Shown here in pieces: positions 2,202-26,707 of a stretch of DNA of 26,785 bases (its first letter is position 1; the number at the start of each line of letters is the position of its first letter). Source of the DNA: a virus; the IMG/VR virus record IMGVR_UViG_3300046413_001143, positions 1 to 26,785 of that record; one strand, written 5' to 3'. The notes under the pieces were generated by a model. It made no database searches. It saw nothing but the letters and a program-made list of their open reading frames with translations, and was not told where the DNA came from. Position numbers and translations under genes: made by a program.

Positions 2202-4583
2202 TTAAATATTTAAATCTTGATTTTGTTCAAAATTTATGGGTAATAAGTTGTTTTGTTTTTGATCAGCAATAGCACTTTGCTGAGTACCTACTATCTTAGT
2301 TCTTTTATCTTTTCTATTTTCAATTTCCAGTTCGCGAGAAGCTTCTGTATTTACTTTCTGTTGACCTAACTGCATGTTGTAGTTAAATTCTAATTCCATT
2401 AACTCACGTTTTATTTGAGCCTCTGTTCTCATTCTTTCTATCTCAAATTGAGATTTACCTTTTTCAAACTTAAGTTTAGTATCTAGTTGAGCTTCTGATT
2501 TTTGTACTTCTGCAAGAGCGGAAGCTTCACTTGCTTGAGCGTTAGCTTGTCCTTGAGCTTGAATATTAGCTAAGTTAGCAGCTTGCGCAGCTTCTGCAGC
2601 TTTCTTACGTTTTAGCTTAATCATTTGATTAGCTAGCTTTAAGTTTCTAACTTGCCTAATATCTATAGCATCTTCTAAATTTATACTACCGCTAGACAAT
2701 GCTGCTTGAATGTTCTGCTCTAATTGCTCTTTTTCTTTTTCATCTGGAACTAAGTCAAAGTAAATGCCAAAATCATACAGGTGTATAGTTGACAAATCCT
2801 CTAATTGACCAACGTTCCATGTTGAAATGCTATTTTTTAAAGCTTCTTTTGTTAAATCAAATTCAATACTATCAGAAGTTCTAAGCACTATGTTTTCACA
2901 AGTTTTAACAGTTAAATACAAATAAGCATTTAATATATGTTTTGTTGCTGTATTAGAATTAGCAGCTGCAAGTTTTTGTAAACCTACTAAAGAATCTGAG
3001 TTTGGCATACTACCATCTCTAGCTTCATTAAGTCCGGTTACGTCTCTTATCATTTGTAAATAATACTGATATGTAGATATTAAAGAATTTATTTTTTGAC
3101 CACCATCACTTTTAACTAATTCTTGTATTGGTATTCTACCTGGATTAGGATCACCTTCAGTTGTCATTGATCTACCTAATATACTACCAGTTTGAAAATA
3201 CATATTCAAAGCTTCTTTAGCATTATACGTAGTACCGTTTCCTAAGTCTACCTCAGCTAAACCATCAACATCTAAATAAACACCATCAGGTATTACTTTA
3301 GATATTACTTGCTGTATTTTTAAATGAGTTAACTGTATCATATCTGCAAAACCAGTCATACGACTTACAAGGCTTTCTATTCTGCCACCATACATTTTAG
3401 GGCAACAGATATTATAATTCATATTTACTTTAACTAAGTTAGATTTTGGCCTTGTCATATTTTCAGCCATTTTCCACTCTAACATCATATCGTAACCTAA
3501 AACTTTAGCGCCACTATAAAGTACTTCAATTGACCTACTAACTCTATCAAAGTTTTCATTTTCATTTGGATCAAAAGTATCTGGTTTTTCTAAAGCTTTT
3601 TCTAAACCTGTGGTAGTTCTTTTTATTTTAAAAACCTGCTCACTAAAAGTCTTGTATTCAAAATAAAGTATATAAATATAATTACCATCTCTTTTGCCAT
3701 TTCTGTTATATAAGAAGTTTCCATTACCTTGATAGTCTTGTAGCTTTTTAAGTTCTTCACCTGTTAAGTTAGGAAATTGTTTCTTACAGTCTGCTAAAGA
3801 TAATGCTTTTACTTCGCCTACATACCATAGGTCTTCAAAATTTGGATCTTCACTATATGAATAAACTAACTTAGAAGGGTCTACATAATCAACTTTAACA
3901 CCTTCAGCTTTGTTCCAAGTTGTTTTAACAGCTCCAATACCTAGTATTACTAAATCTTCTATTACACGTTTTTTCTTTAAGTTATATCTATTAAACTCTA
4001 AAGTATTGTTAATAGCTTCTTCACAAGCTATTTCACTTGCTTGCTTATAGCTTAACTGCATATGAAGATCAAGCTCTTCTTTATTTTCTGGTAATTCTTC
4101 TGGCTTGTTAGTATTGAATAAATCCATACTCAACACGCTTTGTATTTGTGCTAAAAATTCTTTTGCTTGCATATCTCTCAATATGTCTTCTGCGTATTTA
4201 GATCTAATACGTCTTGATTCTGGATCTTGTGCAAAAGCTTTAATATCATAAAGCTTATCATCCATACCGTTAACTACTATGTCTACAAACTTAGGTATAA
4301 TAGGAACAGGTTTCCAGTCTAAATTTAAATAACTTAAGTCACCGTTAATAGCTAGTTCATCTTTGTATTTTTGAACTGGTTGTTCTGCTCTAGCATATAA
4401 TCTACGTAGCCTAAAATTATTGTAATTGCTATTAAACCTGTTTTCAACTCCAGATCTAGTTCCACTAAACCAATCACCTTCAATAGCCATACCAACTTGG
4501 CGGCCATAGTCCATGCTTTGTTTAGCTTCATCAGGTACTACCTGATCTGGAAAAGAACTATAAGTGTTTGTAATTTTCGTCAT
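2202..4583 (-). CDS. Portal protein
   Basis: A 793-aa protein directly after the terminase gene (3-base gap), the normal order terminase-portal-scaffold-capsid. The N-terminal half has features of large portal proteins: WKPVPIIPKFVDIVVNGM near residue 90, a conserved region with IGAVKTTWNKAEGVKVDYVD, and the stretch ARDGSMPNSDSLVGLQKLAA past the middle, which resembles the wing/stem region of podovirus-type portals. The last roughly 130 residues are Ala/Gln/Glu-rich and likely coiled coil (ANLANIQAQGQANAQASEA). Role: dodecameric ring at the capsid vertex for DNA entry and exit and tail attachment. Function is assigned from gene order, length and these regions; it is fairly secure. Confidence 0.85.
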   Translation of the reverse strand: MTKITNTYSSFPDQVVPDEAKQSMDYGRQVGMAIEGDWFSGTRSGVENRFNSNYNNFRLRRLYARAEQPVQKYKDELAINGDLSYLNLDWKPVPIIPKFVDIVVNGMDDKLYDIKAFAQDPESRRIRSKYAEDILRDMQAKEFLAQIQSVLSMDLFNTNKPEELPENKEELDLHMQLSYKQASEIACEEAINNTLEFNRYNLKKKRVIEDLVILGIGAVKTTWNKAEGVKVDYVDPSKLVYSYSEDPNFEDLWYVGEVKALSLADCKKQFPNLTGEELKKLQDYQGNGNFLYNRNGKRDGNYIYILYFEYKTFSEQVFKIKRTTTGLEKALEKPDTFDPNENENFDRVSRSIEVLYSGAKVLGYDMMLEWKMAENMTRPKSNLVKVNMNYNICCPKMYGGRIESLVSRMTGFADMIQLTHLKIQQVISKVIPDGVYLDVDGLAEVDLGNGTTYNAKEALNMYFQTGSILGRSMTTEGDPNPGRIPIQELVKSDGGQKINSLISTYQYYLQMIRDVTGLNEARDGSMPNSDSLVGLQKLAAANSNTATKHILNAYLYLTVKTCENIVLRTSDSIEFDLTKEALKNSISTWNVGQLEDLSTIHLYDFGIYFDLVPDEKEKEQLEQNIQAALSSGSINLEDAIDIRQVRNLKLANQMIKLKRKKAAEAAQAANLANIQAQGQANAQASEASALAEVQKSEAQLDTKLKFEKGKSQFEIERMRTEAQIKRELMELEFNYNMQLGQQKVNTEASRELEIENRKDKRTKIVGTQQSAIADQKQNNLLPINFEQNQDLNI

Positions 4584-21613: not shown

Positions 21614-21671
21614 TAGTGACACTTGCCTGTTATTAGTACTTATTATAAGGCTAATGTCACTACTTTTTTTT
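21614..21671 (+). terminator. Large imperfect inverted repeat followed by T-run
   Basis: Arms TAGTGACA (21614-21621) and TGTCACTA (21655-21662) pair perfectly. After short mismatches GCCT (21625-21628) pairs with AGGC (21648-21651). Eight T follow from 21664. On the + strand this is terminator-shaped, yet no rightward gene lies to its left, so it may end a short rightward RNA, insulate the arms, or be an operator. Confidence 0.4.
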
Positions 21672-21840
21672 ATTATTAGAAGTATAGAACTATAGGGCTG
21701 CCCCACCACAATATAATTTTGTGTAAAATAGAAAATGAAATATTTTATTGCGGGTCCCCCATGTTTTTCAGAATATTATTATAATACTTTGATTGATCGC
21801 GATATATTATTGTGTCGATGCGTTTAGTAAATAAACATAC

Positions 21841-21867
21841 ATAGAAAATACGATACACAATGGATAA
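21841..21867 (+). promoter_or_regulatory. Rightward leader motif, copy 1
   Basis: ATAGAAAATACGA, 8 bases, GGATAA. It is the most diverged copy at the 5' end but keeps TACGA and the exact 8-base spacing. It lies 28 bases before the ATG at 21896. Confidence 0.5.
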
Positions 21868-21895
21868 CTAAATGTAAATAAATAATAATTAAACT

Positions 21896-22024
21896 ATGAA
21901 TAAAATAAAAATAAATATCGAGCTACTAATATTAAAAATATCTTTAATAGCTTTTGTATCAACAGTTATATATATGATAACTAACTTTGGAATAATTAAC
22001 TACATTTCCTTTAATGGAATTTAA
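21896..22024 (+). CDS. Small membrane protein
   Basis: A 42-aa frame MNKIKINIELLILKISLIAF to the stop at 22022-22024. A single hydrophobic segment (ISLIAFVSTVIYMITNFGII) predicts one membrane helix. The start follows the AAACT leader (TTAAACTATG) seen again before the next gene (AAAACTATG), which supports it. It is the first gene of the rightward arm. Unknown function; tiny membrane proteins are common among phage early genes. Confidence 0.45.
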   Translation: MNKIKINIELLILKISLIAFVSTVIYMITNFGIINYISFNGI

Positions 22025-22100
22025 TATAGTAAATTATTAAGATAATGTGTGTTGTACTTCTAAACTAAAATAAACAGTCAAACAAACATACACTCTTTGC

Positions 22101-22127
22101 AAACTAAAAACGAACTAACTTGGATAA
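22101..22127 (+). promoter_or_regulatory. Rightward leader motif, copy 2
   Basis: AAACTAAAAACGA, 8 bases, GGATAA. It sits in a 147-base spacer (22025-22171) otherwise made of A/T-rich sequence, 44 bases before the ATG at 22172. Confidence 0.5.
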
Positions 22128-22171
22128 CTAAATAAATAAAATAAATATAAACTAAATAAAAATATAAAACT

Positions 22172-22408
22172 ATGAAAACTAATAACTTAACTACTAAAAG
22201 ATTTGTAATAAGAAAATCTTTACTCGGAAATAATACAGTAATAACTTTTACTAACAATAAAAATGTCACGTTCACTTACGATCACGACGAAATTTACTCA
22301 ACATTTCAACAAAAATTTGAAGAAATGCCATGTTTCCAACAGTATAAATCTTATACAAATAGTAATACTGTTCCAAAATTCTGCAGAGAATTAAGTGAAA
22401 TATCTTAA
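22172..22408 (+). CDS. Small early protein, unknown
   Basis: A 78-aa protein (MKTNNLTTKRFVIRKSLLGN). The first 50 residues look beta-rich (TVITFTNNKNVTFTYDHDEI); the rest is helical with two Cys (MPCFQQYK, KFCRELSE). The start follows AAAACT. It forms its own unit between motif copies 2 and 3. I do not recognise a family. Confidence 0.6.
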   Translation: MKTNNLTTKRFVIRKSLLGNNTVITFTNNKNVTFTYDHDEIYSTFQQKFEEMPCFQQYKSYTNSNTVPKFCRELSEIS

Positions 22409-22477
22409 AAAACAAAAGTCTTAGTTGATAGTAATACTTTAGAGACTATAAATATAACGAACATATTACTCAGCACA

Positions 22478-22521
22478 TAGCCGAAATGGTTGGAAGTGAG
22501 ATTCGATTTCTCACTCGGTTA
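22478..22521 (+). ncRNA. tRNA acceptor/T-arm-like RNA element
   Basis: TAGCCGA (22478-22484) pairs with TCGGTTA (22515-22521) as a 7-bp outer stem with one G-T. GTGAGA (22496-22501) pairs with TCTCAC (22509-22514) around the 7-base loop TTCGATT, which is a T-loop consensus sequence. The two stems abut on the 3' side like acceptor and T arm. The 11-base 5' bulge AATGGTTGGAA contains a D-loop-like GGTTGG. No anticodon arm or CCA is present. It could be a deleted tRNA, a tRNA mimic or a terminator-like hairpin. Confidence 0.35.
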
Positions 22522-22522
22522 C

Positions 22523-22549
22523 AAACTAACTACGAAAGTCGTAGGATAA
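22523..22549 (+). promoter_or_regulatory. Rightward leader motif, copy 3 (with internal hairpin)
   Basis: AAACTAACTACGA, 8 bases, GGATAA. Only in this copy the variable bases complete a 6-bp hairpin, CTACGA-AAG-TCGTAG (22530-22544). It lies 29 bases before the ATG at 22579, directly after the tRNA-like element. Confidence 0.55.
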
Positions 22550-22578
22550 TAATATAAAACTAATTAAAATAAATAACT

Positions 22579-22779
22579 ATGTATAATCCAAATAATCCTT
22601 CAAACTGGTCTTGGTCAAAAGCTTTTGACGAAATGGAAAAGACTGTAAATCAAGCTGAACTTACTCAGCAATGTATAAATCACGTTCTCAATTATCCCGG
22701 AGAAGCTAACGGTGTCTTCATGACATTAAGTAAATCTCAACAAGATGATGTTTATGAACTACTAAATGAAATATTATGA
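22579..22779 (+). CDS. Small early protein, unknown
   Basis: A 66-aa, acidic, helical protein (MYNPNNPSNWSWSKAFDEME) with GVFMTLSKSQQDDVYELLNE at the end. First gene of a three-gene unit; its stop overlaps the next start by 4 bases (ATGA). The leader is AAATAAATAACT. No family recognised. Confidence 0.6.
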   Translation: MYNPNNPSNWSWSKAFDEMEKTVNQAELTQQCINHVLNYPGEANGVFMTLSKSQQDDVYELLNEIL

Positions 22780-22994
22780 CTCATAATCTAAATACGACTA
22801 TTAACAAAGTAGCTTTGGAAATATTCAACAAGAATTATAATGAGTTAAATAAAACTCAAAAACAAACTTGTAATAAAGAAATGGTTGATAATAAAAAATG
22901 GTTAGCTCCTTTCTGGAAACAACCAGGTTATCAAAGTGAAACCGATAAACTATGTGAAGAACTAGGAATTTTTAACTATAAAACTAATAAATAA
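22776..22994 (+). CDS. Small early protein, unknown
   Basis: A 72-aa Asn/Lys-rich protein (MTHNLNTTINKVALEIFNKN) with a Trp/Pro segment KKWLAPFWKQPGYQ and an acidic helix ETDKLCEELGIF. Translationally coupled to the preceding gene. Its end CEELGIF resembles MEELGIV in the next protein, which may be chance. Confidence 0.55.
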   Translation: MTHNLNTTINKVALEIFNKNYNELNKTQKQTCNKEMVDNKKWLAPFWKQPGYQSETDKLCEELGIFNYKTNK

Positions 22995-22999
22995 TAAAT

Positions 23000-23164
23000 A
23001 TGATAGATAACTATGAATTTGAAATATACTATGGTGAAATGGAAGAACCACTATATTTAACTAACGACAAAAACTATATTTGCGATGAAATGAAAGATTT
23101 CATGGAAGAACTAGGAATAGTAATGGAAGAAGTAATATATAAAGTAGAACTAATTACAAACTAA
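23000..23164 (+). CDS. Small acidic early protein
   Basis: A 54-aa frame MIDNYEFEIYYGEMEEPLYL to LITN, starting 5 bases after the previous stop. It is strongly acidic with two beta-like strands and a helix (CDEMKDFMEELGIVMEEVIY). Its stop codon lies inside leader motif copy 4. Unknown function; acidic DNA-mimic-like composition is worth noting but unproven. Confidence 0.5.
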   Translation: MIDNYEFEIYYGEMEEPLYLTNDKNYICDEMKDFMEELGIVMEEVIYKVELITN

Positions 23165-23184
23165 ATACGACGAGAGATGGATAA
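23158..23184 (+). promoter_or_regulatory. Rightward leader motif, copy 4
   Basis: AAACTAAATACGA, 8 bases, GGATAA, then 7 bases to the ATG at 23192. An ATG at 23177 overlaps the motif itself, so the later start is preferred. Confidence 0.6.
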
Positions 23185-23191
23185 TAACAAT

Positions 23192-23449
23192 ATGAAATAT
23201 ATAAACACAGATAACTTAACAGCAATCGATTACGGTGATGGTAGTATCAAACTCATGATCTACAACAAACATAAATCTCCTTATGGTTACTCACCTCGCG
23301 ACTTAGTTGTCTCACTGTTTGGTGTTTCAATGAAAGAATTTACGTACAACTATGTACAACAAGAAGTAGACAAAGTGTATTCTACTTTCAACTATGATGA
23401 AATACACGAACTAATAACTAAAATAAATAACAATGACAAAAACTCTTAA
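23192..23449 (+). CDS. Small early protein, unknown
   Basis: An 85-aa protein from the ATG at 23192 (MKYINTDNLTAIDYGDGSIK). An in-frame ATG at 23177 is rejected as start because it lies inside the leader motif. Beta-rich first half, then a helix pair (KEFTYNYVQQEVDKVYSTFN, YDEIHELITKIN). First gene of the longest early unit. It overlaps the next gene by 17 bases. Not recognised. Confidence 0.6.
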   Translation: MKYINTDNLTAIDYGDGSIKLMIYNKHKSPYGYSPRDLVVSLFGVSMKEFTYNYVQQEVDKVYSTFNYDEIHELITKINNNDKNS

Positions 23450-23597
23450 AAAAATAGCTACATATCTAACAGAGTGGCACATGTTAAAAATATACGCTAC
23501 CATTATGACTACATGTTTCTTATGTATATGGATACCAACTATGTTTGTAGCAATAAAAAATATAATAACACAAGTAATAATACCACTATTTAAATAA
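23433..23597 (+). CDS. Small membrane protein
   Basis: A 54-aa frame MTKTLKKIATYLTEWHMLKI to the stop at 23595-23597. An amphipathic basic N-terminus is followed by a long hydrophobic segment (YATIMTTCFLCIWIPTMFVA). It starts within the previous gene and ends one base before the next start. Probably a single-pass inner-membrane protein; role unknown. Confidence 0.5.
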   Translation: MTKTLKKIATYLTEWHMLKIYATIMTTCFLCIWIPTMFVAIKNIITQVIIPLFK

Positions 23598-23598
23598 T

Positions 23599-23820
23599 AT
23601 GAAACTAACTAACGAAGAAAAAGACGAAATTACTTGGAGAGTAGTTGACTCACTATACGAAAAACTAGCTAACGAGCTAGAATATGAACTACAAGAACAT
23701 GAAAACTTTCCAGAAACTAACGATGCTTACATGAATTTATTCAATGAAATGACTGTAAAGATAGTAAAGTATATGAGAAGTGAACTATTTCAACCAATGA
23801 CTAATGAAGATTTAAAATAA
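23599..23820 (+). CDS. Small acidic helical early protein
   Basis: A 73-aa protein (MKLTNEEKDEITWRVVDSLY) dominated by Glu-rich helices (EKLANELEYELQEHENFPET) with a short end ELFQPMTNEDLK. Packed head to tail with neighbours. No family recognised. Confidence 0.55.
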   Translation: MKLTNEEKDEITWRVVDSLYEKLANELEYELQEHENFPETNDAYMNLFNEMTVKIVKYMRSELFQPMTNEDLK

Positions 23821-23824
23821 TAAA

Positions 23825-23995
23825 ATGACAGAACAACAAGCAATTGAAGCAATCGCTAATGATATACAGGATGGTATCTACGGTTGGACACAGAAATGTG
23901 GAACAGAGTGGCAGAAGTGGACATACTCGCTAATGCAAGCAAGAAAAATATATGAAGGTGAACTAATAATAGATTTAGAAAATGGGAGTAATTAA
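23825..23995 (+). CDS. Small early protein, unknown
   Basis: A 56-aa frame MTEQQAIEAIANDIQDGIYG to LENGSN, 4 bases after the previous stop. A Trp-rich centre (GWTQKCGTEWQKWTYSLMQA) lies between two helices. It overlaps the next gene by 14 bases. Not recognised. Confidence 0.5.
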   Translation: MTEQQAIEAIANDIQDGIYGWTQKCGTEWQKWTYSLMQARKIYEGELIIDLENGSN

Positions 23996-24173
23996 TAGAG
24001 CGCATGAGTGGGATGCTTTGAACAATATCACTAATAGTGAGTTTGAAGATTCTAAAACATTAAAAGCAGTAATGTTCTTAATGATACGAGAAAATGTAAG
24101 AAAAATACCTAACGATCAAGAATTAGGTAAACAAATAAGAAAAATAATATTAAACTTTGATAAAAATAATTAA
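23982..24173 (+). CDS. Small early protein, unknown
   Basis: A 63-aa helical protein (MGVINRAHEWDALNNITNSE) with KTLKAVMFLMIRENVRKIPN and a basic end. Its start is embedded in the preceding gene. Not recognised. The 98 bases after it contain no ATG-started frame longer than about 15 codons. Confidence 0.5.
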   Translation: MGVINRAHEWDALNNITNSEFEDSKTLKAVMFLMIRENVRKIPNDQELGKQIRKIILNFDKNN

Positions 24174-24271
24174 AATATTAATTAAATGGATAGTATGTTT
24201 CACTATAGCTTACTATACTAACGCACCATTTCTGGCGTGTATGATAACTAACTTTAAATATAAACTAAAAT

Positions 24272-24415
24272 ATGAAAACAATTAAATTTTACCCAAGTGA
24301 CAGGTCACTTATTAAACTAGATGGAAAAATGTATAGAGGATATACAATTAGTAATATACCAGATGACATTCAAGGCTGGTTTAACTACAAAGGATTAACT
24401 TTTGTTACAAATTAA
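24272..24415 (+). CDS. Small early protein, unknown
   Basis: A 47-aa frame MKTIKFYPSDRSLIKLDGKM to FVTN, beta-rich (YRGYTISNIPDD, GWFNYKGLTFVT). The leader AACTAAAATATG resembles other starts in this arm. Its stop lies inside leader motif copy 5. Not recognised. Confidence 0.5.
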   Translation: MKTIKFYPSDRSLIKLDGKMYRGYTISNIPDDIQGWFNYKGLTFVTN

Positions 24416-24435
24416 ATACGAACACTATTGGATAA
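24409..24435 (+). promoter_or_regulatory. Rightward leader motif, copy 5
   Basis: AAATTAAATACGA, 8 bases, GGATAA, then 7 bases to the ATG at 24443. Spacing to the start is the same as in copy 4. Confidence 0.6.
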
Positions 24436-24442
24436 TATATAC

Positions 24443-24676
24443 ATGAATACAACAACAATACAAACAAAAGCATGTAAATGTGGCGAAAAGCTACATCCAG
24501 TAAGAATTAAGTACGGTTATAGTACATGTGTACCATGTTCTACCGTCGAGCGTTATGGTTGCGCTCCAGTTATCAACCATAAAACTGGCAATAGTATACA
24601 AATACTTAGTCGTGAAGATGCTATTAAAATAGCAAAACTAACTAGACGAAAAGGTTATGGTACTATGCTAAGATAA
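24443..24676 (+). CDS. Small zinc-finger protein (TraR/DksA-like zinc site)
   Basis: A 77-aa protein from the ATG at 24443 (MNTTTIQTKACKCGEKLHPV); an upstream TTG in frame lies in the leader motif and is rejected. CKCG and, about 15 residues later, CVPCS give a CxC...CxxC zinc site with the HPVRIKYGYSTCVPC spacing seen in TraR/DksA-type fingers. The tail INHKTGNSIQIL...RRKGYG is of a type I associate with Bacteroidota phages. Such proteins may bind RNA polymerase, so a transcription role is plausible but inferred. Confidence 0.65.
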   Translation: MNTTTIQTKACKCGEKLHPVRIKYGYSTCVPCSTVERYGCAPVINHKTGNSIQILSREDAIKIAKLTRRKGYGTMLR

Positions 24677-24740
24677 CACGAAATAGCAAAGGCATCGCGC
24701 CGCGGCGTAGCTCATACTCACAAGGTATGGGCTTTTCGTG
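24677..24740 (+). ncRNA. GC-rich structured element between early genes
   Basis: CACGAAA (24677-24683) pairs with TTTCGTG (24734-24740). Directly inside on the 3' side AGCTCATAC (24709-24717) pairs with GTATGGGCT (24725-24733, one G-T) around a 7-base loop TCACAAG. The 25-base 5' insert (24684-24708) holds the palindrome GCCGCGGC (24699-24706). The G/C richness is unlike the surrounding AT-rich arm. It ends 4 bases before the next ATG, so it may be a cis-acting leader or processed RNA. Confidence 0.4.
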
Positions 24741-24744
24741 GTAG

Positions 24745-24891
24745 ATGAATAAAATAACAAAACAACTCGAAAACTTGTATTCTTGGACAAAATTCTATCA
24801 AGATCGAGGTAATAAAGAACAAATAAGAAAGTGTCAAACTGAAATCGCACAGTTAAAACAAGCGTATAATAAATTAAAATCTAAAAAATGA
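24745..24891 (+). CDS. Short coiled-coil protein
   Basis: A 48-aa frame MNKITKQLENLYSWTKFYQD to KLKSKK, basic and helical, likely a short coiled coil (CQTEIAQLKQAYNKLKSKK). It starts 4 bases after the structured element and its stop overlaps the next start (ATGA), which supports it as a gene. Unknown function. Confidence 0.5.
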   Translation: MNKITKQLENLYSWTKFYQDRGNKEQIRKCQTEIAQLKQAYNKLKSKK

Positions 24892-25172
24892 AAGATACTA
24901 ACGCTATCGAACAAGCATTAAAAGACAAATGCAAAAAAGAAATAGAAGGAGTAGTTAACGTATTTATGAATGAACTTGAAGTAAAAATCAGAGGTGAATA
25001 TAATGGAGCTAATTATTATGACATCCAAGAACCACTTGGTAAAAGATCATTTCATGTAATGGGTACTGAACAACTAAAAAATGTATTGTTAAAAATGATA
25101 CAAGGTGCTCATCTTGAATCTATGGTTGCAGTTAAATCAAAAGAATTAATTAAAAAACTTGAATTAGTATGA
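24888..25172 (+). CDS. Small helical early protein
   Basis: A 94-aa protein (MKDTNAIEQALKDKCKKEIE). A helical start, then a short strand region (KIRGEYNGANYYDIQEPLGK), then helices to the end (KNVLLKMIQGAHLESMVAVK). Overlaps the next gene by 4 bases. Not recognised. Confidence 0.6.
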   Translation: MKDTNAIEQALKDKCKKEIEGVVNVFMNELEVKIRGEYNGANYYDIQEPLGKRSFHVMGTEQLKNVLLKMIQGAHLESMVAVKSKELIKKLELV

Positions 25173-25561
25173 AAAATAGAACACTAAATGAAATTAGACA
25201 ATCAAAAGAATATCAGATTGCTAAAGAAACAGTAGGTAAATACGAAGATTGTACAGGTGACGTTAAAACTGGTCACGCTGCTGTAGCTTTAAAAGAATTA
25301 AAAGGTGAAAACTTTTATAAAAATCCTTTTTCTCATGCAGATGTAGACAAAACTGTTGAAACAATAGTAGAAAAGCTAGATGGTCACATGTATGACTTAA
25401 TATTTCAAGCAGTTTGTGATGAAATGAATAATCACTATGTGTTTGACTCAACAGAATACTTAACTCAAGCAGGTTTAGAACTATTTGAAGACGAATGGTT
25501 CGAGTTTTATCATGAAAATCATGGTAAAATAATTCATAAACTACTACAAAACTTAAAATAA
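25169..25561 (+). CDS. Early protein, unknown
   Basis: A 130-aa, mildly acidic protein (MKNRTLNEIRQSKEYQIAKE). Mostly helical; segments VETIVEKLDGHMYDLIFQAV and LELFEDEWFEFYHENHGKII are likely structured helices with clustered aromatic residues. Last gene of its unit, 3 bases before leader motif copy 6. Not recognised. Confidence 0.6.
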   Translation: MKNRTLNEIRQSKEYQIAKETVGKYEDCTGDVKTGHAAVALKELKGENFYKNPFSHADVDKTVETIVEKLDGHMYDLIFQAVCDEMNNHYVFDSTEYLTQAGLELFEDEWFEFYHENHGKIIHKLLQNLK

Positions 25562-25564
25562 TAC

Positions 25565-25591
25565 AAACTAAATACGAACACTAAAGGATAA
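25565..25591 (+). promoter_or_regulatory. Rightward leader motif, copy 6
   Basis: AAACTAAATACGA, 8 bases, GGATAA, then 6 bases to the ATG at 25598. It is the copy closest to consensus; here AAAGGA could also act as a weak Shine-Dalgarno sequence. Confidence 0.6.
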
Positions 25592-25597
25592 TATAAT

Positions 25598-25819
25598 ATG
25601 TTATACGATAAATTAAAACCACATATCAAAGCCAAGTTGAAAGAAAATGCTGAAGAGTATAAGTCTGTAAACTGGCTATTTGATAAACTAAAACAAAAAG
25701 ACAATTATTCTGAATTAACTATTGACGACATAAGATCTCTCTGTACATTTGGCGATGTATGGTATCATGATCTCACTCAGTCACAGATTATATGGGGTGA
25801 ATGGCTAATAAATAAATAA
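25598..25819 (+). CDS. Small early protein, unknown
   Basis: A 73-aa protein (MLYDKLKPHIKAKLKENAEE) of alternating helices with a Trp/Tyr-rich end (TFGDVWYHDLTQSQIIWGEW). First gene of the last visible unit, directly behind motif copy 6. Not recognised. Confidence 0.6.
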   Translation: MLYDKLKPHIKAKLKENAEEYKSVNWLFDKLKQKDNYSELTIDDIRSLCTFGDVWYHDLTQSQIIWGEWLINK

Positions 25820-25821
25820 AT

Positions 25822-26175
25822 ATGAACGAAGAAAAACTAGCAATAGATACACTAACAGCACTAGGCGCTAAAGACACATCAAGTCCATCTCAAACAAAAA
25901 GAGGTACAACTTGCTTTACATTACCTACAGGCACGTGTATATCTGAACACAAAACAGGTTATATTAGAAAAAATCTACTAAACAAAAATGGTAGTATTTA
26001 TACCTGTTATCAACTAAATCCGCAATATAAATCTGCTCACAAAGTAGTATCAAGAGATGGTAAGCTATATGAATGGAATTATAATAAAAGAATGTTGATA
26101 AACAATAGAGCTGAAAGGCTAAAAAGACTTGTATTATATGCAATTAAAGATATAAATCAAGCAAATGGAAAATGA
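25822..26175 (+). CDS. Small early protein, unknown
   Basis: A 117-aa basic protein (MNEEKLAIDTLTALGAKDTS), mixed beta and helix, with two well separated Cys (TTCFTLPTGTC) and a KRMLINNRAERLKRLVLYAI basic helix near the end that could contact nucleic acid. Starts 2 bases after the previous stop. Not recognised. Confidence 0.6.
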   Translation: MNEEKLAIDTLTALGAKDTSSPSQTKRGTTCFTLPTGTCISEHKTGYIRKNLLNKNGSIYTCYQLNPQYKSAHKVVSRDGKLYEWNYNKRMLINNRAERLKRLVLYAIKDINQANGK

Positions 26176-26254
26176 TGAACGAGACTTAGCGTTAATACTA
26201 TTTGCATTAGCGCTAATATTTTACACAACTATACTAACTATAAAATTAATTTAA
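26165..26254 (+). CDS. Tiny membrane peptide
   Basis: A 29-aa frame MENDERDLALILFALALIFY to KLI: an acidic N-terminus and one hydrophobic helix (ALILFALALIFYTTILTI). It overlaps the previous gene by 11 bases and ends directly against the next ATG, which argues for translation. Unknown role. Confidence 0.4.
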   Translation: MENDERDLALILFALALIFYTTILTIKLI

Positions 26255-26707
26255 ATGGAATCAAAAGAACCAACAAACGAAAAAATAATAGAAGCTGTAA
26301 AAAGTTATTACGGCTTAAAAGTAGATGACAATGCATGGGATAATGCAGATGTTTACGCTTATGAAGAAACAACTGCAGATGGTTATTCTGTATGGGTAGT
26401 AACTCACGACATGAAAAGCATATGTGTATCTGAAGATGTATATTACTATGAAAGTGATGTACCATCAGCTATCATGGAAATGGTAACAAACTCTAATGGC
26501 TACTGTGTACTATACGCAGATCAATACTTTCTAGATGATATATACTTTGATGATATGTTACTAGAAGAATTTGCAGAAATAGCAGATAAGATATATGACG
26601 AAATTATGAATGATGATGAAGCAGATTATGGCTTTGACATGGCAGAAATACTATGGCTCAAAGAAGAATTTACTGAGTCAGAAGAAATTAATCAGACTGT
26701 TAGTTAG
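26255..26707 (+). CDS. Acidic early protein, unknown
   Basis: A 150-aa, strongly acidic protein (MESKEPTNEKIIEAVKSYYG). The centre has strands (GYSVWVVTHDMKSICVSEDV, GYCVLYADQYFLDD); the rest is Asp/Glu-rich helix (EIADKIYDEIMNDDEADYGF). High negative charge and small size fit DNA-mimic or host-inhibitor proteins, but nothing proves this. Last complete gene in the window. Confidence 0.6.
   Translation: MESKEPTNEKIIEAVKSYYGLKVDDNAWDNADVYAYEETTADGYSVWVVTHDMKSICVSEDVYYYESDVPSAIMEMVTNSNGYCVLYADQYFLDDIYFDDMLLEEFAEIADKIYDEIMNDDEADYGFDMAEILWLKEEFTESEEINQTVS

Follow-up and report, generated by a model that had tools for sequence, protein, structure and literature searches.

The 26,785-nt stretch of viral DNA analysed here (IMG/VR record IMGVR_UViG_3300046413_001143, positions 1 to 26,785; hereafter the window) carries six copies of a bipartite motif in its arm of small genes. 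These copies are probably promoters for a sigma70-family factor of the phage itself, acting on the core RNA polymerase of the host. Within such a promoter, GATAAT would be the -10 element, and WTACAAACTAAATACGA, which lies 8 bp upstream of the GGATAATA block, would be a -35-type recognition element that extends into the spacer, with transcription starting at a purine 7 nt downstream of GATAAT. Recognition would depend on the host core polymerase together with the phage sigma70-family protein, possibly aided by an adjacent helix-turn-helix (HTH) protein. In this way, the phage could bring the polymerase to the operons for its small genes and for replication independently of the host consensus, and leaderless transcripts are predicted in approximately a quarter of cases. 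A first-pass annotation had proposed a phage-specific promoter family as its best guess, and this proposal is well backed by the one-strand layout, the presence of a -10 element and an initiator, the tight link with gene starts, the co-occurrence with a sigma gene, and the near-absence of the motif from bacterial genomes.

Six copies in the small-gene arm

A pattern search of the whole window located the six copies where the first-pass annotation had placed them (21841-25591, + strand only), and the 8-base spacing is invariant across all six. When up to three mismatches are allowed, AAACTAAATACGA-N8-GGATAA has exactly six matches in the window and none in 100 dinucleotide-preserving shuffles. 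A weight matrix built from relatives ranks these copies as the top six sites on either strand, and the next-best site in the window scores -17 bits. The wording of the motif stands only in part, as it is exact in copies 4 and 6, differs by one base in copies 2, 3, and 5, and differs by three in the degenerate copy 1 (ATAGAAAATACGA). The boundaries also need to be extended: the conserved part includes TTAC before and TA after GGATAA, and the aligned copies give a full element consisting of WTACAAACTAAATACGA, eight weakly constrained bases, and GGATAATA.

21837..21869, + strand: copy 1, degenerate, ATACATAGAAAATACGA-N8-GGATAACT; 2.4 bits, sixth best; before open reading frame (ORF) 21896-22024
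22097..22129, + strand: copy 2, TTGCAAACTAAAAACGA-N8-GGATAACT; 23.6 bits; predicted +1 at approx. 22135; before ORF 22172-22408
22519..22551, + strand: copy 3, TTACAAACTAACTACGA-N8-GGATAATA; 37.0 bits; predicted +1 at approx. 22557; unit 22579-23164
23154..23186, + strand: copy 4, exact; 45.2 bits; predicted +1 at the A of ATG 23192 (leaderless); unit 23192-24415
24405..24437, + strand: copy 5; 45.6 bits; predicted +1 at the A of ATG 24443 (leaderless); unit 24443-25561
25561..25593, + strand: copy 6, exact; 45.3 bits; unit 25598-26707
21896..26707, + strand: small-gene arm that the six copies would serve; its orthologues in the close relative G014 have motif copies of their own

The distance between GGATAA and the ATG is 7, 7, and 6 nt in copies 4, 5, and 6 and 28, 44, and 29 nt in copies 1, 2, and 3, as had been described; in copy 6, the ATG (25598) is one base nearer than in copies 4 and 5. 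The internal TAA of copies 4 and 5 doubles as the stop codon of the preceding ORF (23000-23164 and 24272-24415, respectively). The weakness of copy 1 is shared by its counterpart, the first copy in G014. The division of the arm into six units by these copies is correct within the extent of the contig. It should be noted that the capsid gene is cut at the left end of the window, which is thus a whole IMG/VR record and yet a phage fragment.

The initiator and the predicted start site

The position of the motif relative to genes was examined in 516 distinct copies, in 485 of which an ORF start (an ATG opening at least 35 codons) lies within 100 nt downstream. In 127 of these 485 copies, the ATG is found exactly at offset +5 after GATAATA. 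In 296 copies without an ATG at this offset, the base there is A (0.60) or G (0.38), rarely T (0.02), and never C, i.e., a purine in 98% of cases, and it is usually preceded by T or A. If GATAAT is placed at -12 to -7, the purine at offset +5 becomes +1. The simplest reading of this arrangement is a promoter from which transcription would start at that purine. As +1 coincides with the A of the start codon in approximately a quarter of the copies, leaderless mRNAs are predicted for these; within the window, copies 4 (ATG 23192) and 5 (ATG 24443) fit offset +5 exactly. In 90 of the 516 copies, an ATG immediately followed by a stop codon (mostly ATGTAA) begins exactly 3 nt after GATAATA. This start-stop element probably reflects an initiator sequence and not an upstream ORF that is translated; the latter interpretation was dropped since the G of that ATG falls at the predicted +1.

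The fixed purine also bears on the second guess of the first-pass annotation, according to which the motif is a shared 5' untranslated region (UTR) element recognised by a phage or host RNA-binding protein; a translation signal may be considered together with it. Copies do lie before gene starts, and in some of them, GGA is found close before the ATG. However, the distance to the ATG varies from 0 to more than 60 nt while the purine stays at offset +5, the N8 region is variable, and no Rfam match was found. Moreover, the predicted transcription start is downstream of the motif, which would place the motif outside the RNA, and thus an RNA element fits poorly and is very unlikely.

A promoter for a single-subunit RNA polymerase encoded by the phage is suggested by the resemblance of AAATACGA-N8-GG to the T7 promoter TAATACGACTCACTATAGGGAGA, which is visible by eye in copy 5. 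This explanation is scarcely credible, as PF00940 has no match in 26 motif-bearing records or in 13 motif/sigma records and the window (T7 control, 1e-109), the purine is located at offset +5 instead of at GG, and genomes differ in the first G of GGATAA. With regard to a virion polymerase, no DFDGD motif was found in five motif-bearing genomes and two relatives, and two giant virion proteins that were scanned had no polymerase family match. The giant virion ORFs occupy the same genome position in G014 (43516-52641, 3041 aa) and in MW202828 (741-12320, 3859 aa); no blastp similarity was detected between those of motif-bearing phages and those of motif-less relatives. An N4-type hairpin promoter, in which a stem of 5-7 bp and a 3-nt loop are expected at every promoter, was rejected since direct reading of the sequence shows a hairpin in copy 3 only (one of six). 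Copy 3 overlaps an inverted repeat, CTACGA-AAG-TCGTAG. Repeats of this type vary on both arms between phages (window 22523-22549, G014 5755, and G001 55912), and the versions are CTACGA-AAG-TCGTAG, CAACGA-TAG-TCGTTG, and CAACGA-CAC-TCGTTG.

Phage carriers and the candidate sigma factor

When IMG/VR was scanned with a slightly degenerate pattern, at least 118 stretches matched, including many contigs with several copies on one strand. The window terminase shares 63% identity with that of MW202828 and 45% with that of Elemovirus; further terminase relatives are found in Maribacter phage Panino, Cellulophaga phages phi13:2, phi38:1, and Calle, and Tenacibaculum phage Gundel. Genes for TerL, a P22-like portal, GroEL, and GroES are present. 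The terminase relationships make the clade kin to flavobacterial podoviruses, and the motif, as judged from these comparisons, is a property of an uncultured marine phage clade with genomes of approx. 60-70 kb that is related to Elemovirus and the Cellulophaga podoviruses. Neither MW202828 nor Elemovirus has any copies. Genomes with the motif contain 1-20 copies, always on one strand, and this single-strand placement held for all full records that were searched (0 matches with the reversed pattern). In five near-full relatives (63-68 kb), 7-12 copies lie on a single strand of the small-gene and replication arm, and the structural arm has none. Likewise, when GATAATA sites located 0-60 nt before an ORF were counted without bias, 426 lay on the strand of the sigma gene and 22 on the opposite strand. 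Duplicated early genes occur in G014, each accompanied by a promoter copy of its own.

A protein of 249 aa is encoded in the motif-bearing genomes. Pfam detects sigma70 regions 2 and 4 in it (2.5e-5 and 1.3e-3, respectively), and it matches PHROG_351 'RNA polymerase sigma factor' (3e-20). The family profile finds SigA/RpoD chains in the PDB (6.5e-9), as well as FliA over residues 27-240, and a predicted model of the protein (pLDDT 75.8, pTM 0.46) is matched by Foldseek to sigma-A chains (E 1.5e-6). Of 26 records selected by the motif, 25 have a sigma70-family gene, the frame of which is broken or split in two of them, and the gene is missing from all 18 relatives (seven named, i.e., six cultured phages and MW202828, and eleven Elemovirus-like contigs). 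Reciprocally, the motif is present in 32 of 37 records selected by the sigma gene (reversed pattern, 0) and in none of the 18 sigma-less relatives. In 80 sigma loci, all 186 motif copies lie on the sigma strand.

Of the five sigma records that lack the pattern, four contain versions that have diverged but keep the N8-NGATAATA layout, and their upstream elements read TTCGAAACnTAATACGA (L175, also L203 and L218), ACACGGACTTAATAAAA (L195), CCCCTAACTAATTACTA (L226), and ATATAAGTTTGACACGA (L240). Among the sigma phages in general, the upstream element varies between genomes and is common to the copies within one genome, with the spacing and GATAATA kept; the base preceding GATAATA is typical of the lineage. 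Upstream elements from one genome resemble each other more than those from different genomes do, by 0.045, which is above all 1000 permutations (SD 0.006). Such a joint shift of a whole promoter set points to a cognate trans-acting protein. It is tempting, if somewhat speculative, to regard these phages as a series of orthogonal sigma/promoter pairs, in which the upstream elements have shifted jointly in each lineage, the -10 element has been kept, many promoters yield leaderless mRNAs, and single chromosomal copies could put host genes under the sigma factor of an infecting phage.

The chromosomal copies bear on another explanation, a host alternative-sigma (e.g., stress) promoter that the phages exploit. 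Perfect copies are indeed found upstream of genes in three Flavobacteriales/Flavobacteriaceae chromosomes assembled from metagenomes. However, when 84,980 bacterial and archaeal species were scanned, only six stretches were found; three are phage-like, and the other three come from these chromosomes. With one or two copies per chromosome and no such sigma factor there, the motif does not constitute a host regulon. The alternative-sigma motifs of F. psychrophilum (the sigma54 -24/-12 motif, TAnnTTGY, and the ECF CGT box) differ from the element (PMC9723704), which also diverges from phage to phage, and a host origin of this kind is most improbable. The flavobacterial chromosomal copies, perfect or near-perfect (G029:C2:984323, G030:C2:141676, G030:C2:160149, and G031:C1:4274), sit upstream of a paralogous gene for a small secreted protein or of a TerB-like gene. 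They may stem from phages or respond to a phage sigma factor.

Several observations weigh against recognition by the phage sigma factor. There is no sigma gene within the window fragment; since the close relative G014 has one, we infer that the phage of the window carries its gene outside the fragment. The few perfect copies in bacterial chromosomes occur without this sigma factor, and the sigma model itself is only moderate. The co-occurrence of sigma and motif holds at the level of the clade, in which a primase, ERF, an exonuclease, and HTH206 are similarly distributed. Furthermore, association between residues and the motif does not single out the sigma factor, as neighbouring clade proteins score like it both in sigma-versus-motif distance and in residue mutual information. 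Finally, the upstream element, with its 17 bp, exceeds the usual length of a -35 box, and thus an extra activator may be involved.

Accordingly, the main live rival is a promoter at which a phage activator (e.g., HTH206) binds the 17-bp upstream element and recruits the host holoenzyme in a manner resembling T4 MotA, with the phage sigma factor serving other genes. The unusual length of the upstream element suits this explanation, as does the presence of HTH206 in 74 of the 80 sigma loci; the association tests do not decisively separate HTH206 from sigma. One contig, G010, has two non-identical HTH206-sigma pairs (3078-4447 and 64292-65661). However, the -10 sequence GATAAT is unlike the TAnnTTTG of flavobacterial sigma-A, which makes host sigma-A a poor partner (PMC9723704, PMC6847099), and another repeated promoter-like motif that could serve the sigma factor was sought in the structural arm and not found. 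An activator of this type therefore appears unlikely, and a promoter read by the phage sigma factor is preferred. The search for such a late-arm motif was by 7-mer enrichment, and the top word inspected proved to be coding.

The promoter element is accompanied by a second conserved element:

21617..21659, no strand assigned: inverted repeat of 43 bp (TGACA...TGTCA), located in the divergent region that precedes the structural arm

The repeat has the consensus TGACAnTAGCC...GGCTAnTGTCA. In relatives, the HTH206-sigma operon begins with this repeat, and the HTH206 start codon lies inside its right arm. It is found near the start of HTH206-sigma in 67 of 74 loci, with the same end base in more than 60 of these. 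Its positions include G014 6910 and 63966; G026 15266, 15618, and 6668; G010 3042 and 64256; G001 55351 and 61887; and G013 14125 and 5835. It is absent from MW202828 and Elemovirus, and the search gave two matches in 1.19 Mb of reversed-sequence control. From its sequence, the repeat looks like an operator; a role as an RNA stem is unsupported, as no covariation is seen beyond the fixed half-sites. It is plausible that the sigma operon would be expressed first and the small-gene and replication units would follow through the promoter element, with the structural arm controlled separately. If the phage sigma factor must indeed be made first, the promoters would be delayed-early or middle rather than immediate-early.

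Two further types of sequence were noticed in the arm. Directly 5' of some motif copies lie stretches resembling a tRNA T-arm (e.g., GTTCGATTCCTGC; window approx. 22480-22522, L007, and L045). The stretch in the window is not called as a tRNA by ARAGORN, and the tRNA search of the window found none. A short G+C-rich stretch (GCATCGCGCCGCGGCG...) occupies 24680-24744, between ORFs 24443-24676 and 24745-24891, in a genome with 33% G+C; instead, the G014 counterpart of the gene that follows seems to have a motif copy of its own.

Significance and comparison with known systems

No earlier description of the motif was found in the open-access literature. The promoter assignment would provide an annotated transcription program for a large and mostly uncultured group of marine phages, as well as a set of candidate promoters from Bacteroidota phages that dispense with the host consensus. 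It would also offer a naturally occurring series of sigma/promoter pairs whose specificities have diverged on a common architecture, so that joint change of a promoter set and its sigma factor becomes testable. Leaderless messages are predicted far more often than has been reported for the host group: in F. psychrophilum, 5.5% of mRNAs are leaderless (PMC9723704), whereas here, 127 of 485 copies have their start codon where +1 is predicted.

The primary sigma-A of flavobacteria, the probable host group of these phages, uses TTTG / TAnnTTTG promoters (PMC9723704, PMC6847099), but this consensus is not matched by the motif, which lacks both the TAnnTTTG (-7) and the TTTG (-33) elements; here, the first-pass annotation was right. 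The host-type pattern TTG-N18-22-TAnnTTTG shows overall no enrichment over a Markov model in six genomes. The likeness to promoters of T7-type RNA polymerases (AATACGA...GG and repeated copies on one strand) is superficial, as no polymerase gene was found in these phages and both the start site and the bipartite layout differ.

Sigma factors of other phages provide closer parallels. The sigma factor gp47 of the phiEco32-like phage 7-11 was shown in vitro to use GTAAtg-(16)-aCTA promoters upstream of late genes (PMC8948821). Both systems have a phage sigma-like protein and bipartite promoters common to several operons, and in both, the start (here predicted) lies a few bases downstream of the -10-side element. 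However, the element described here is WTACAAACTAAATACGA-N8-GGATAATA, lies in the small-gene and replication arm rather than the structural arm, and is a predicted promoter. The phiEco32 sigma factor gp36 recognises a single element, tAATGTAtA, without a -35 element, transcription starts 6-8 bp downstream, and gp36 has no region-4 homology (PMC8948821, PMC4331800). It is likewise a phage sigma factor with dedicated middle/late promoters, whereas a long upstream element is present here and region 4 is detected in the sigma protein. Taken together, the motif and its candidate sigma factor appear to be of the same kind as the known phage sigma/promoter pairs, from which they differ in sequence, in the much longer upstream element, in the placement in the small-gene arm, in the frequency of predicted leaderless starts, and in divergence between lineages.

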